Shown one piece after another: positions 25,789 to 37,753 of a DNA stretch of 64,000 nucleotides (the first letter of the stretch is position 1; each line of letters starts with the position of its first letter). Below the pieces are notes generated by a model. It ran no database searches, was not told the DNA's origin, and was given only the letters and a program-made list of their open reading frames with translations. Source of the DNA: Paenibacillus phyllosphaerae (GTDB lineage Bacteria > Bacillota > Bacilli > Paenibacillales > Paenibacillaceae); the NCBI RefSeq assembly GCF_014192105.1, contig NZ_JACHXK010000003.1, positions 434,001 to 498,000 of the forward strand, written 5' to 3'. The position numbers and the translations under genes were made by a program.

Positions 25789-26700
25789 ATGACAACTAAT
25801 GAACGTTATGCACGAGCGGAGACGGCTGCTTGGATGAGTCTGCTCGGTAATGTTGGTATTGCTGCAATTAAGATGGGCGTTGGCATGATGGGCAGTAAAG
25901 CGCTTCTTGCCGACGCCTGCCGCAGTGCCTCTGATGCGTCAGCGGCGTTCGTATCGCTAACTGCTTTACGTCGCCGCCGTCAATTCGGGGCAAACGATGC
26001 GCCGGTTCCGATGACGAAAGGGCGCGTCGAGTCCGTTACTGGCGTTATGATCTCAATGATGCTGATGATTATGGGGCTTGAGGTTGGCATATCAGCGATC
26101 AAGTCCATAGCTGATGGCATCGACGAAGGTCCAGGATGGTCAGCTGTTACGACCGTGCTGATCGCTTTCCTGATCAAGGAGATTTTCTTCCCTGTGAAGG
26201 AACGCCGAACGGACTTGTACGCTACACTGGCTGCACTTGTCGGTACTGGAACTGCCGCACTCGGCGAACCGCTTAATCTTCCGATCCTTTATTATTTTGA
26301 TCCGGCCTCATCGATCGTTATTGTCGTTGTTGTACTTACAAACGGTTACCGGGTTGCGACGGCTTCGGTGCTCAAGCGCAGCTATTGCGAAGAGCAGCCT
26401 GCCGATATCAACGAATTCAAAGCTGCTGTTCAGCGGATTGAAGGGGTTGTTACGGTTGAGGAGCTGCGGGCCAGAGAACACGGCCACTATGTCATAACAG
26501 ATGTTGTCATCACAGTGAACCCGCGCATTACTGTGATGGAAGGCAATGAGATTGCCAAGCGAGTCAAATATTTCTTGATGAAACGGTTCAGCCATGTCAC
26601 GGACGTAACGGTTCACGTACAGCCTTACGATCCCGGCTATCCGTACAAAACGAATCACGATCCGAATCAGGAACAACAATTGCCGACGCTGCTGCAATAG
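25789..26700 (+). CDS. Cation diffusion facilitator family protein with altered metal site
   Basis: A 303-residue CDF-type protein: six membrane helices and a C-terminal cytoplasmic domain (about 212-290) ending VTDVTVHVQP, as in zinc/manganese CDF transporters. The usual TM2 ligand motif (H/D-x-x-x-D) reads ACRSASD here, with Arg in the ligand position. The HPYGHG loop is absent, and the TM5 region (RRTDLYATLAALVG) lacks the H-x-x-x-D pair. It may not carry metal in the usual way. ATG 25789 follows AGGGGGAG. It stands alone between secF and recJ and ends in a terminator. Confidence 0.82.
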   Translation: MTTNERYARAETAAWMSLLGNVGIAAIKMGVGMMGSKALLADACRSASDASAAFVSLTALRRRRQFGANDAPVPMTKGRVESVTGVMISMMLMIMGLEVGISAIKSIADGIDEGPGWSAVTTVLIAFLIKEIFFPVKERRTDLYATLAALVGTGTAALGEPLNLPILYYFDPASSIVIVVVVLTNGYRVATASVLKRSYCEEQPADINEFKAAVQRIEGVVTVEELRAREHGHYVITDVVITVNPRITVMEGNEIAKRVKYFLMKRFSHVTDVTVHVQPYDPGYPYKTNHDPNQEQQLPTLLQ

Positions 26701-26719
26701 CAGCGGCGGTTTGTTTTTT
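26683..26719 (+). terminator. Intrinsic terminator of the CDF gene
   Basis: CCG-A-CGCTGC pairs with GCAGCG-G-CGG across the stop codon; TTTGTTTTTT follows. Confidence 0.82.
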
Positions 26720-26821
26720 GAAATATGGGAATTTATAAGTTTCACGGTTATAAATCATCCTCTATTTCTATGGAATGAAACGCGCTGCGCCATTAAAGAC
26801 GGCGAAAACCGTTTCACCTTG
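26717..26821 (+). promoter_or_regulatory. Candidate structured leader RNA, copy 1 (upstream of recJ)
   Basis: A 105-nt sequence that recurs at 36863-36967. Hairpin P1 is ATTTATAA (26731-26738) with TTATAAAT (26748-26755). P2 is TGAAACG (26776-26782) with CGTTTCA (26810-26816), enclosing P3, CGCC (26788-26791) with GGCG (26801-26804) and an ATTAA-starting loop. It ends 27 nt before the recJ start. Family not recognised. Transcription is inferred from its place in the 5'UTR. Confidence 0.7.
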
Positions 26822-26848: not shown

Positions 26849-29305
26849 TTGATTCATGCGAAGACAAGATGGAACGTGACCCGGCTAGGTCACGAGAATG
26901 AAGAGCTGGCTGCCCAGCTAAGCAAGCAGCTTAAATTGCCTGCGCTCGTAGCCCGGCTGCTCGTTCAACGGGGGATACGTTCCGCTGAGGAAGCACATCT
27001 TTTCTTGAATGCGGGAGAAGACCGATTGCACGATCCCTATCTTCTCAAAGATATGGACAAGGCCGTCGCGCGGATTCGCAAGGCCGTCGAGCACGATGAG
27101 CGCGTCCGGATTTACGGCGATTATGACGCTGACGGCGTTTCTTCGACGACGCTTATGACCTATTTATTCCGCGAGCTTGGCCTTAAGTTCGATCATTATA
27201 TTCCCCATCGAACCATTGAGGGCTACGGTCTTAATGATCGAGCGATCGATATGGCGCACGAGCTTGGCGTAACGCTTATTGTAACGGTAGATACGGGAAT
27301 TAGCGCAGTCGAGCAAATCGCCTATGCCAATTCGCTAGGCATCGATGTAGTCGTGACCGACCACCATGAACCGCCCGCGATACTTCCTCAAGCGCTGGCT
27401 CTCGTTAATCCGAAGCAAGAAGACTGCCCGTATCCGTTCAAAGGTCTCGCAGGGGTAGGCGTTGCTTTCAAGCTGGCGACAGCCATGCTGGAACGTCCGC
27501 CTATCGAGTGGACGGATATCTATGCGCTTGGTACGATCGCGGATCTAATGCCGCTTACCGACGAGAATCGCATATTGGTCCGCTATGGGCTTGAGCAATT
27601 GAAACGCACCGAGAAACCCGGGTTCCGCGCACTTGCCGATGTGGCCGGGATTGATCTGACCCGTGTTACGTCCACCAATATTGCCTTCGGCATGGCCCCC
27701 CGGATTAATGCTGCCGGAAGGCTTGCCCATGCGAATCAATCGGTGGAGCTGCTCGTCGCCGATAACGACGATTCAGCCCTAGCGTCGGCTCACGCGTTGG
27801 ATGCGCTCAACAAGGAACGCCAGCAGGTTGTGGAAGCGATCGTGGAAGAGGCTAAAGCGCAATGGGCGGACAAATGCCTGGCGGCCCAAGAAGCGGGCAA
27901 ACCGGAGCCGTCGGTCATTGTGTTGGCAGGTGAAGGCTGGAACGCCGGTGTTGTCGGTATCGTCGCTTCGAAATTTATCGAATGGCACTATAAGCCGACG
28001 CTTATCCTGGGTATCGATGCTCAGACCGGTATGTGCAAAGGTTCGGCACGATCGATTGACGGCTATGACTTGCATGCCGCATTAACGGAATGCGATGCGC
28101 TGCTCGATCACTATGGCGGCCATCAAGCCGCTGCCGGCATGAGTCTGCATCGCGATCAGCTGGAAGCTTTCGAGACTCGACTGTGCGAGCTTGCCGATCA
28201 ATGGTTGCAACCTGACGATTGGATTCCGAAAACGACGATTGATTTGGCATGTACGATCGAAGAAGCTACGATAGAGGTGCTGGAGCAATTAGCGCTGCTC
28301 GAGCCTTTCGGTATTGGCAATTCGCCCCCCAAGCTGCTGCTTCAGCAGACTGATATTGCGGACAAGCGGACGATGGGCAAAGAAAGCAAGCATCTGAAAC
28401 TTACGCTCGGCGGCGGCAAGCGGCTTCTCGATGCGGTCGGCTTTGGGCTCGGCCATCTTGCTGAGCGGTTGACCGAAGGGGCGCAAGCACAGCTTGTCGG
28501 CGAATTGGCGATGAATGAGTGGAATGGACAACGGAAGGCGCAGTTCATGATCCATGATCTGAGCGTCGCTCAACTACGCTTGGTCGATTTGCGGGCGGAG
28601 CAGTCGCCGATGCAGGCATTCAGGCAGCTAATCGAGAGCAACAAAATCGATCCAGCCCAGGCGCTTATAGTTGCTGCGAGTTCGGCTTGGCGCGAGGCGG
28701 GTATTGAAGCAGCTGGTGATGCTGCTTCCCAACTGGTTATTGCGAGCTATGAAGATTGGCAGCAAGCTAACATCGAGGGCAAGCGAACGTTACTTTTGCT
28801 TGGCAAACCGTCGCTTAGGGAACTGGCCGGAATAATTCGTAGTTGCGTCCGGCTCGAATCTGTGTATGCTTTATATAGTCAGCCCAAATCGACAGGACGC
28901 CAAGGAAGAGCCGCGAGCGGCGGAACCGGTATGCCAGGACGAGAACATTTTGCACAACTGTATCAAACCTTGCGGCGTGTTGGACCGCTTCAGGATAGCG
29001 AACGCTCCCAGAGGCTGGCCGTAATGCTAGACTGGCCAGTCGAGACGGTCGAATTTATGGTGAACGTCTTTATTGAGCTGGAACTGGTTGAGATCCGTTC
29101 CGATATGCTCACACTACCCGTATCGCCGGCCAAGAGGGAACTGACAGAATCGCCTGCTTACCGCAAGCGAATGCATGCGGCCGAGGAGGAGAAGATTCTC
29201 TATGCTTCAGCCAAGGAGCTTGGCGCATGGCTGACAGAACAGACGCAAGCATCAAGAACCCAACATCACATGATTGAACAAGAAGAAGGAGTGGCAGTTT
29301 CATGA
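26849..29305 (+). CDS. recJ: Single-stranded-DNA-specific 5'-3' exonuclease RecJ
   Basis: An 818-residue DHH-family nuclease used in recombination and mismatch/base-excision repair. Motifs: [14 protein letters not shown] (about 90-103), [17 protein letters not shown] (the DHH motif), NAAGRLAHA and, in DHHA1, [13 protein letters not shown] with GGHQAAAG. An extended C-terminal domain (about 570-818) is typical of Bacillus-type RecJ. TTG 26849 is chosen because GGAAGGAAG lies about ten bases before it and the IHAKTRWNV start aligns with Bacillus RecJ; the frame is open further upstream through the leader element. Confidence 0.94.
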
Positions 29306-36826: not shown

Positions 36827-36858
36827 GCGGTATCCGGTCGCTTTATAGACCGGGCCGC
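36827..36858 (+). terminator. Strong hairpin after aspS (terminator-like)
   Basis: GCGG and CCGGTC pair with GACCGG and CCGC around an 8-nt loop, with a TAT/G internal mismatch. The following sequence TATCTTTG is only weakly T-rich, so termination is uncertain. It abuts the structured element copy 2. Confidence 0.5.
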
Positions 36859-36862
36859 TATC

Positions 36863-36967
36863 TTTGAAATTCAAGCGTTTATAAGGTTCCCGCTTATAAA
36901 GCTGCTTGCATTTCTCCGCAATGAAACGCGCCCACGTCATTAAGACGACGGTAGACGTTTCAACTTG
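36863..36967 (+). promoter_or_regulatory. Candidate structured leader RNA, copy 2 (upstream of tcdA)
   Basis: The second copy of the 105-nt element. P1: TTTATAAG (36878-36885) with CTTATAAA (36893-36900). P2: TGAAACG (36922-36928) with CGTTTCA (36956-36962). P3: CGTC (36935-36938) with GACG (36947-36950), or the closer GACG at 36944. It starts with TTTGAAAT and ends CTTG like copy 1, 30 nt before the tcdA start. Confidence 0.7.
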
Positions 36968-36997: not shown

Positions 36998-37753
36998 ATG
37001 CTGCACCAATTTTCCCGGACAGAGCTTGCGATCGGTCCCGAAGGTCTAGAGCTGATGAAGAACAGCACCGTTGCCGTTCTGGGGATCGGCGGCGTCGGAT
37101 CGATCGCTGCGGAAGCGTTGGCGCGTACCGGCGTAGGACGGATCATCCTGATCGATAAGGATGTCGTCGATATAACGAACGTGAACCGCCAGATCCATGC
37201 GCTCACGACGACCGTTGGACAACCTAAGGCAGATTTGATGCGGGATCGGATTAAGCTGATTAACCCGGAATGCGATGTCATCTCATTGCGGATGTTTTAC
37301 ACAGAGGAAACCTACGAGAAGCTGTTCGAGTATCCGCTCGATTATGTATTGGATGCTTCCGACACCATCTCTTACAAGATTCATCTGATCAAGCAGTGCT
37401 TGGAGCGGAAAATTCCGATTATCTCCAGCATGGGTGCCGCGAACAAAATGGATCCGACCAAGTTCCAGGTAGCCGACATCTCGAAGACATCGATGGACCC
37501 GATCGCGCGCGTCGTCCGCACGAAACTGCGGAAAGACGGGATTAAGAAAGGGGTTAAGGTCGTCTTCTCGACCGAGGAGCCGATGAAGCCGCGGGAAGAT
37601 GTCACGCAGCGCATCGTGCCGGAGAATGCGCCGGAGATCCGCAAGGCGCAGCAGCCGCCGGCTAGCAACGCTTTCGTTCCGCCTGTTGCGGGATTGATCA
37701 TGGTTAGCGTCGTGGTGAAAGATTTGCTCGTTAATGGCGGTCTAGATCGTTAA
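36998..37753 (+). CDS. tcdA: tRNA threonylcarbamoyladenosine dehydratase (ThiF/E1-like)
   Basis: A 251-residue ThiF/MoeB-superfamily protein matching TcdA (YgdL/YrvM), which makes cyclic t6A at tRNA position 37 using ATP. Seen: nucleotide loop GIGGVGSIAAEALARTGVG (about 30-48), LIDKDVVDITNVNRQ, and ISSMGAANKMDPT. ATG 36998 follows AAAGGAGG. It lies after aspS as in B. subtilis, behind the structured element. Confidence 0.92.
   Translation: MLHQFSRTELAIGPEGLELMKNSTVAVLGIGGVGSIAAEALARTGVGRIILIDKDVVDITNVNRQIHALTTTVGQPKADLMRDRIKLINPECDVISLRMFYTEETYEKLFEYPLDYVLDASDTISYKIHLIKQCLERKIPIISSMGAANKMDPTKFQVADISKTSMDPIARVVRTKLRKDGIKKGVKVVFSTEEPMKPREDVTQRIVPENAPEIRKAQQPPASNAFVPPVAGLIMVSVVVKDLLVNGGLDR

Follow-up and report, generated by a model that had tools for sequence, protein, structure and literature searches.

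Two copies of a structured sequence lie shortly ahead of recJ and tcdA in the window (the whole 64,000-nt stretch of DNA analysed here), which raises the question of whether they are cis-regulatory leader RNAs of those genes or copies of a mobile element that settled there. Our best explanation, to which we give a probability of roughly 0.78, is that they belong to a non-coding mobile repeat of about 100 nt, built of two hairpins and placed behind terminators, in single-stranded form, by a trans-acting enzyme. The repeat has spread in many copies, sits behind T-tracts that often belong to a recognisable terminator, is present or absent at orthologous sites, is oriented with replication and has conserved pairing. 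The features on which the argument turns are listed here; scores refer to R1, a covariance model built from 29 copies of the host genome.

26721..26821, + strand: element copy 1, a non-autonomous hairpin repeat of 101 nt (R1 match of 125.1 bits; a training copy).
26721..26767, + strand: module A of copy 1, outer stem AAATATGGG/CCTCTATTT (one T.C mismatch) and inner stem TTTATAAG/GGTTATAAA, from the fold and from covariation over copies.
26776..26816, + strand: module B of copy 1, outer stem TGAAACG/CGTTTCA and inner stem CGCC/GGCG, then the terminal CCTTG, from the fold and the alignment.
26683..26719, + strand: intrinsic terminator (stem around GCTGC..GCAGC, T-tract) of the cation-efflux-like gene upstream of recJ and apparent insertion target of copy 1; the hairpin is found in 22 of 22 congeners.
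36867..36967, + strand: element copy 2, 101 nt (R1 match of 101.5 bits; a training copy).
36867..36913, + strand: module A of copy 2, outer stem AAATTCAAG/CTTGCATTT and inner stem TTTATAAG/CTTATAAA, from the fold and covariation.
36922..36962, + strand: module B of copy 2, outer stem TGAAACG/CGTTTCA and inner stem CGTC/GACG, then ACTTG, from the fold and covariation.
36827..36865, + strand: aspS intrinsic terminator (CCGGTC..GACCGG, T-rich tail) and apparent insertion target of copy 2; the other 21 congeners have no forward copy in this gap, and many show a terminator there by eye.

Much of the original prediction holds at this level. Both copies are present, homologous and equally long, aligning without net length change; the shared words listed for them are all correct, as is the change in the P3 stem from CGCC/GGCG to CGTC/GACG. 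Its 105-nt bounds do not hold: the leading TTTG belongs to the flanking T-tract, and trimming leaves 101 nt each. The distance of about 30 nt to a start codon holds for copy 2, which ends 30 nt before the tcdA ATG at 36998, and shortens to about 27 nt for copy 1 when the recJ start is taken as the in-frame TTG at 26849. Both copies fold better than their dinucleotide shuffles (z of -2.68 for copy 1 and -4.71 for copy 2), and so do their complements (-3.44 and -4.28), so that folding alone cannot name the strand. The absence of a recognised riboswitch family also stands, as no Rfam family, whether riboswitch or other curated cis-regulatory RNA, reaches its gathering score in the 64-kb window, and permissive scans return only matches with E above 1.

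The two copies are members of a large family. The host genome (7.9 Mb in 54 contigs) contains the 12-base core AATGAAACGCGC 45 times and the reversed pattern not once, although at least three of the 45 (L025, L032, L038) are not element-like. Relaxed to two mismatches, the core matches nine times in the window where 11.75 are expected, which is not above chance, and only the two exact matches are the element. With 150 of 2792 first-look candidates scored, R1 finds 140 matches in the host genome at E<=1 and 120 at E<=1e-4, among them the 29 training copies, which match by construction. Over 59 genomes, the host's own included, 28 have a match at E<=1e-4: all 22 of the genus (assigned as Paenibacillus from named hits, and counting the host), along with genomes from three further genera of its family and from two more families within the order. 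Copy number among the congeners runs from 1 to over 100. Subfamilies are species-specific, and genome G013 is near-uniform, with 20 of its 62 copies averaging 93% identity. A 20-base pattern searched over named genomes returned 14 stretches, 13 of them in eight Paenibacillus species or strains; the fourteenth, in a Verrucomicrobia MAG (L142), was set aside on its flanks, which are unlike the element (10 of the 14 named stretches were read). In a plasmid collection the matches lie in two Paenibacillus cellulosilyticus plasmids, where the region is without annotation. Copy 2, used as the sole query, found nothing beyond 25-nt matches at E=1 in a phage collection, and no viral contig carries either of two exact gapped patterns. 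Literature searches on Paenibacillus and such repeats, PATEs, group IIC introns and SINE-like elements found no published description of this repeat, though one may exist.

A full copy runs from module A through a TCTCCGG linker to module B and the terminal CTTG. The consensus of module A has an outer stem AAATAYAAG/CTTSTATTT and an inner stem TTTATAAG/CTTATAAA; that of module B has TGAAACG/CGTTTCA outside and CGCC/GGCG inside. Other copies and species keep the pairing while changing the sequence, as GAATTCTAAG/CTTAGAATTC, as ACATATAGG/CCTCTATGT (one mismatch) and, in module B, as AAGAAAC/GTTTCTT. Two copies in G014 (L122 and L129) carry an extra internal hairpin of about 45 nt within module B, and an apparent solo A module at G000:C18:105667-105711 (L196) follows a long T-tract and is itself followed at once by a GGAGG motif. 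Tandem arrays of two to four copies occur in the host genome (G000:C5:188854-189263, C11:6318-6619, C3:159919-160235 and C1:378200-378412). In several such arrays the copies are by eye more similar to one another than to copies elsewhere, as local duplication would leave them; the neighbours at C20:104923 and 105024 look like independent insertions.

The claim that this structure is under selection is borne out by covariation, both on the 29 host copies and on 122 non-redundant copies from many genomes. Among the host copies 89.6% of cells pair, both-side changes occur at 11 pairs against 4.7 in shuffled alignments, and the covariation score is 0.133. Shuffled alignments give 0.074 (none of 500 matches the real score) and slid controls do not exceed 0.077; the latter are the weightier comparison, since shuffling takes no account of relatedness. 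RNAalifold was weak on the alignment (A3), and the four-helix structure was supplied by hand. The third helix, the outer stem of module B, has no both-side change among the 29 copies. The larger set was drawn from copies of 100-118 nt with a recognisable 3' end (L080 is among those left out) and fell from 130 to 122 rows on removal of eight near-identical ones. In it, pairs 2-46, 3-45, 5-43, 6-42, 8-40, 12-34, 13-33 and 56-97 lie clearly above independence (permutation p about 0.001), and the outer stem of module B covaries clearly only at the base pair that closes it at its base, between subfamilies. We place the 5' border at AAATA because the flank base just ahead of it (column 0) shows no covariation with the position it would pair with. 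Mismatches of the G.T and A.C kinds are nearly balanced (123 and 120) and do not tell the folding strand apart.

Comparison of orthologous gaps, occupied in some congeners and empty in others, indicates insertion. The aspS-tcdA gap holds a forward copy in one of 22 congeners, the host, directly after the aspS terminator; among the other 21, those in which aspS ends in an evident terminator have the tcdA leader next (G010 has a weak antisense match in this gap, E 0.49). The gap before recJ holds copies in the host (E 2.3e-29), in G013 (6.3e-14) and in G010 (2.8e-6), and a weak one in G018 (E 0.067), while 18 of the 22 have no R1 match there; G009 shows by eye an ambiguous remnant. The hairpin around the stop codon upstream of recJ is kept in all 22 genomes, with the T-tract reduced in G007. 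The copies before recJ belong to differing subfamilies. Repeated insertion at one terminator is the simplest reading, ahead of a possible ancestral insertion followed by losses and homogenisation. At the junction, the flank ends in TTTTTTG, the element runs from AAATA to CCTTG, and the right flank follows; no target duplication was seen by eye at the two loci, aspS-tcdA and recJ, and no terminal inverted repeats were seen. The suggestion of a mobile element is thus strongly supported by the many copies, the empty orthologous sites and the near-uniform copies of G013. In five congeners (L080, L082, L084, L087 and L075, in G004, G002, G016, G006 and G018) a copy occupies what is apparently one shared place. 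The left flank is common to four of them and the right flank to four, L075 included; the A hairpin differs yet pairs. By eye, from the ORFs of L084 and L075, the copy in these two has an alanine racemase gene on one side and a MazE/MazF-like antitoxin-toxin pair on the other. This shared copy is a candidate for vertical retention or domestication.

The flanks of the host copies point to where insertion takes place. From the 120 matches (the 20 of 140 with E>1e-4 being left out), removal of 20 copies under 95 nt left 100, and removal of 19 that follow CACCTTG, in tandem, left 81 non-tandem full copies. Their left flanks carry T at -2, -3, -5 and -6 in 56, 60, 56 and 60 cases, and the last target base is G in 40. 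A strict hairpin-plus-T score is passed by 24 of the 81 left flanks and by 9 of 20 sites in G013; of 1620 control positions 0.9% pass, and of 100 right flanks one does. That only 24 of the 81 pass is a counterpoint to terminator targeting. A 14-base 3'-end motif hits 85 times in G013 against six times when reversed. Of 20 such loci outside the listed R1 hits, 14 lie by eye behind a terminator and are deleted, truncated or divergent copies; the remaining six have no clear terminator, and some look like chance matches in coding sequence.

Orientation follows replication. With the origin set at dnaA and the terminus at the opposite point, and with opposite-strand double hits and tandem neighbours merged, 131 of 144 sites among the matches listed for six single-contig genomes point with replication: 60/61 in G013, 16/18 in G005, 15/16 in G001, 11/12 in G010, 8/8 in G014 and 21/29 in G018. 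The last decides little because its two dnaA genes give opposing counts (21/29 from one, 11/29 from the other). Two full-length Bac_DnaA ORFs far apart are found on G018:C1 (452 and 447 aa) and also on G009:C1 (452 and 449 aa). Part of the replication bias is to be expected because terminators point the same way as genes. Against baselines taken from loci chosen for holding the element, the bias in G013 (60/61) exceeds the leading-strand coding share of 0.796 (p=1.5e-5), and in the host GC skew is positive on the element strand at 89 of 105 sites, compared with 0.699 of co-oriented coding bases (p=3.7e-4). In the window, GC skew is positive in 16 of 16 stretches, which agrees with the + strand of both copies.

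Taken together, these patterns suggest a pathway in which the element would travel as a folded single strand, either DNA or RNA copied into DNA. It may enter the lagging-strand template, where the terminator hairpin would be exposed, and a trans-acting enzyme may then join it on behind the T-tract. Because its 3' end, CTTG, is similar to the frequent target TTTG, resident copies might serve as targets too, giving some of the tandem arrays. The target choice points to machinery like that of group IIC introns, the form of the ends instead to an HUH nuclease.

One rival to this reading, possible though in our view doubtful, is that the repeats are strict PATEs, that is, IS200/IS605 ends moved by a Y1 TnpA transposase with the hairpins as its recognition sites and with cleavage 3' of a short YTTG motif. 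What fits is that hairpins lie near both ends, that neither inverted terminal repeats nor a duplicated target is visible, that the motif preceding the insertion is short and resembles the right end, and that there is a strand bias. However, no credible Y1 enzyme is found in the 22 congeners. The Y1 transposase domain PF01797 matches in 7 of 59 genomes, and has no match in 21 of the 22 congeners, the host among them; the sole match in the genus, in G017, is an AraC-type regulator on which the HTH model scores far better, and lies just over the cut-off on the genome and under it on the whole ORF. Nor did we find a relative with an ORF between modules A and B among the 20 G013 loci with the 3'-end motif, and the last target base is G at only 40 of 81 sites. 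The Y2/IS91 domain PF04986 is present in 6 of 59 genomes, among the 28 carriers in G013, G017 and G028, and in 2 of the 22 congeners. An IS91 parent looks unlikely, since the loci L268, L270 and L271 hold no R1 match and no element-like ends nearby. A weak R1 match at L272 (E 0.13), in the non-carrier G058, shares sequence with the beginning of a 142-aa ORF and was discarded. At L268 (G013:C1:1965667), by eye, the IS91-type transposase ORF overlaps the end of a tyrosine-recombinase-like ORF.

A second rival, which we consider unlikely, is a SINE-like retroelement whose RNA is copied and inserted in trans at terminator sites by the reverse transcriptase of a group IIC intron. PMC8919778 reports that bacterial-C introns lie right after intrinsic terminators and are strongly strand-biased, inserting onto the 'lagging strand', a convention that may differ in polarity from the one used here. 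The reverse transcriptase domain PF00078 (RVT_1) is found in 31 of 59 genomes and 11 of the 22 congeners, a broken one in G014 counted. Eleven of 12 such loci scanned with Rfam have group II matches, and four of the eleven (in G000, G009, G013 and G036) have a GTGCG start 83-87 nt ahead of their Rfam D1-D4 match, with a hairpin immediately preceding that start, which is the type of site that the element occupies. Three of these four hairpins, candidates picked by eye, have a T-rich tail; the other seven loci have no such start. Six of the 20 G013 motif loci (L310, L311, L317, L319, L321 and L324) lack the 5' part and begin, by eye, inside the element at or a few bases from the terminator T-tract. 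Such copies fit partial insertion by a reverse transcriptase, but they fit deletion by hairpin slippage as well, and a 3'-end query selects for 5' loss. Against this reading, RVT_1 has no match in the copy-rich G018 and G020, its presence shows no relation to R1 copy number over the 22 congeners (p=0.97), and the element ends (AAATA..CTTG) are unlike the apparent intron ends. It is tempting to speculate, improbable as we judge it, that a true bacterial SINE exists here: a small structured RNA that exploits the machinery of group IIC introns to enter the lagging-strand template behind terminators, leaving 5'-truncated copies.

Far less probable is a riboswitch-like leader RNA regulating recJ, tcdA and other genes in cis. 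The element is structured and covarying, is co-oriented with recJ and tcdA and lies about 30 nt before their starts, as such a role would have it. Yet 21 of 22 congeners have no forward copy before tcdA, 18 have no R1 match before recJ, and the element is placed behind a T-tract. Across the host genome the genes downstream give the same answer. With 15 tandem-downstream copies left out (120 to 105), the neighbours upstream and downstream are oriented +,+ at 41 sites, -,+ at 30, +,- at 22 and -,- at 7, five being incomplete, and at 30 of 102 sites the ORF downstream lies antisense to the element. At 82 of the 105 sites there is no overlap with a called ORF (80 aa or longer); 23 do overlap one, some of them, as at recJ, only because the start was called too early, and there the neighbour is possibly misnamed. 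Without these 23 the counts are 34, 24, 17 and 6, with one incomplete, and a general role in 5' UTRs is excluded because the downstream ORF is still antisense at 23 of 82 clean sites. Orientation tracks replication and terminators, not the downstream gene. The original expectation that a covariance model would find many covarying copies in 5' UTRs thus held for the copies and their covariation and failed for consistent placement in 5' UTRs, and the proposal that they regulate recJ and tcdA is not supported. Copies scattered at random within genes on either strand and devoid of covariation, the pattern named as refuting the original reading, are not what we see: 82 of 105 lie outside ORFs, and the copies covary. 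The recJ and tcdA copies are probably bystanders, with neither the terminator nor the ribosome-binding site disrupted by them, and a single domesticated copy, such as the one before the mazEF-like pair, could still be regulatory.

Chi, KOPS and Ter sites exemplify host functions tied to replication or termination. That the repeat serves a function of this kind and is no mobile element is scarcely credible, despite its strong co-orientation with replication: congeners differ in copy number from 1 to over 100, orthologous sites can be empty, subfamilies are specific to species, and some copies are truncated.

The mobile hairpin repeat that we favour adds a large family of small mobile repeats to Paenibacillus and its relatives. 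Landing sites behind terminators should allow insertion to do little harm, and replication-strand polarity is near-complete in one genome, G013. Structured copies at 5' positions are easily misread as riboswitches, which calls for caution with such repeats. The family also raises the question of which enzyme moves a hairpin-only element without an evident known single-strand transposase; were the bacterial SINE reading true, it would be a parallel to Alu using LINE-1.

Several known systems resemble the element in part. REP/REPIN, BOX, RUP and bcr1-type repeats are high-copy, structured, intergenic and modular, and sometimes tandem. The element shares all of these properties and is set beside them by description only, in part that of PMC2267715. 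REPs, as the title of PMC3733652 has it, are tagged by GTAG or CGTC, whereas no such tag is seen at the ends of the 29-copy element alignment.

PATEs, palindrome-associated elements derived from IS200/IS605, are described in PMC3119063 and PMC7290912 as short and without an ORF, with palindromes near their termini, no inverted terminal repeats and no target duplication, and PMC7290912 gives IS200/IS605-type transposition a preference for the lagging strand. The element too has palindromes near both ends, no ORF, no terminal inverted repeats and no duplication (by eye, at two loci). It differs in having no IS200/IS605 relative that shares its ends, with no credible Y1 in 22 congeners, and in its target, a T-tract that often belongs to a terminator. 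In this last respect it resembles group IIC introns as PMC8919778 describes them: it also lies behind terminators with a strand bias, and group II introns lie behind hairpins in these same genomes. Unlike those introns, it has no group II match (neither domain V nor D1-D4 at or near the two window copies), no GTGYG start and no ORF. We conclude that the two window copies represent a new family of small hairpin repeats that are mobile, PATE-like in their form and similar to group IIC introns in the targets they choose.
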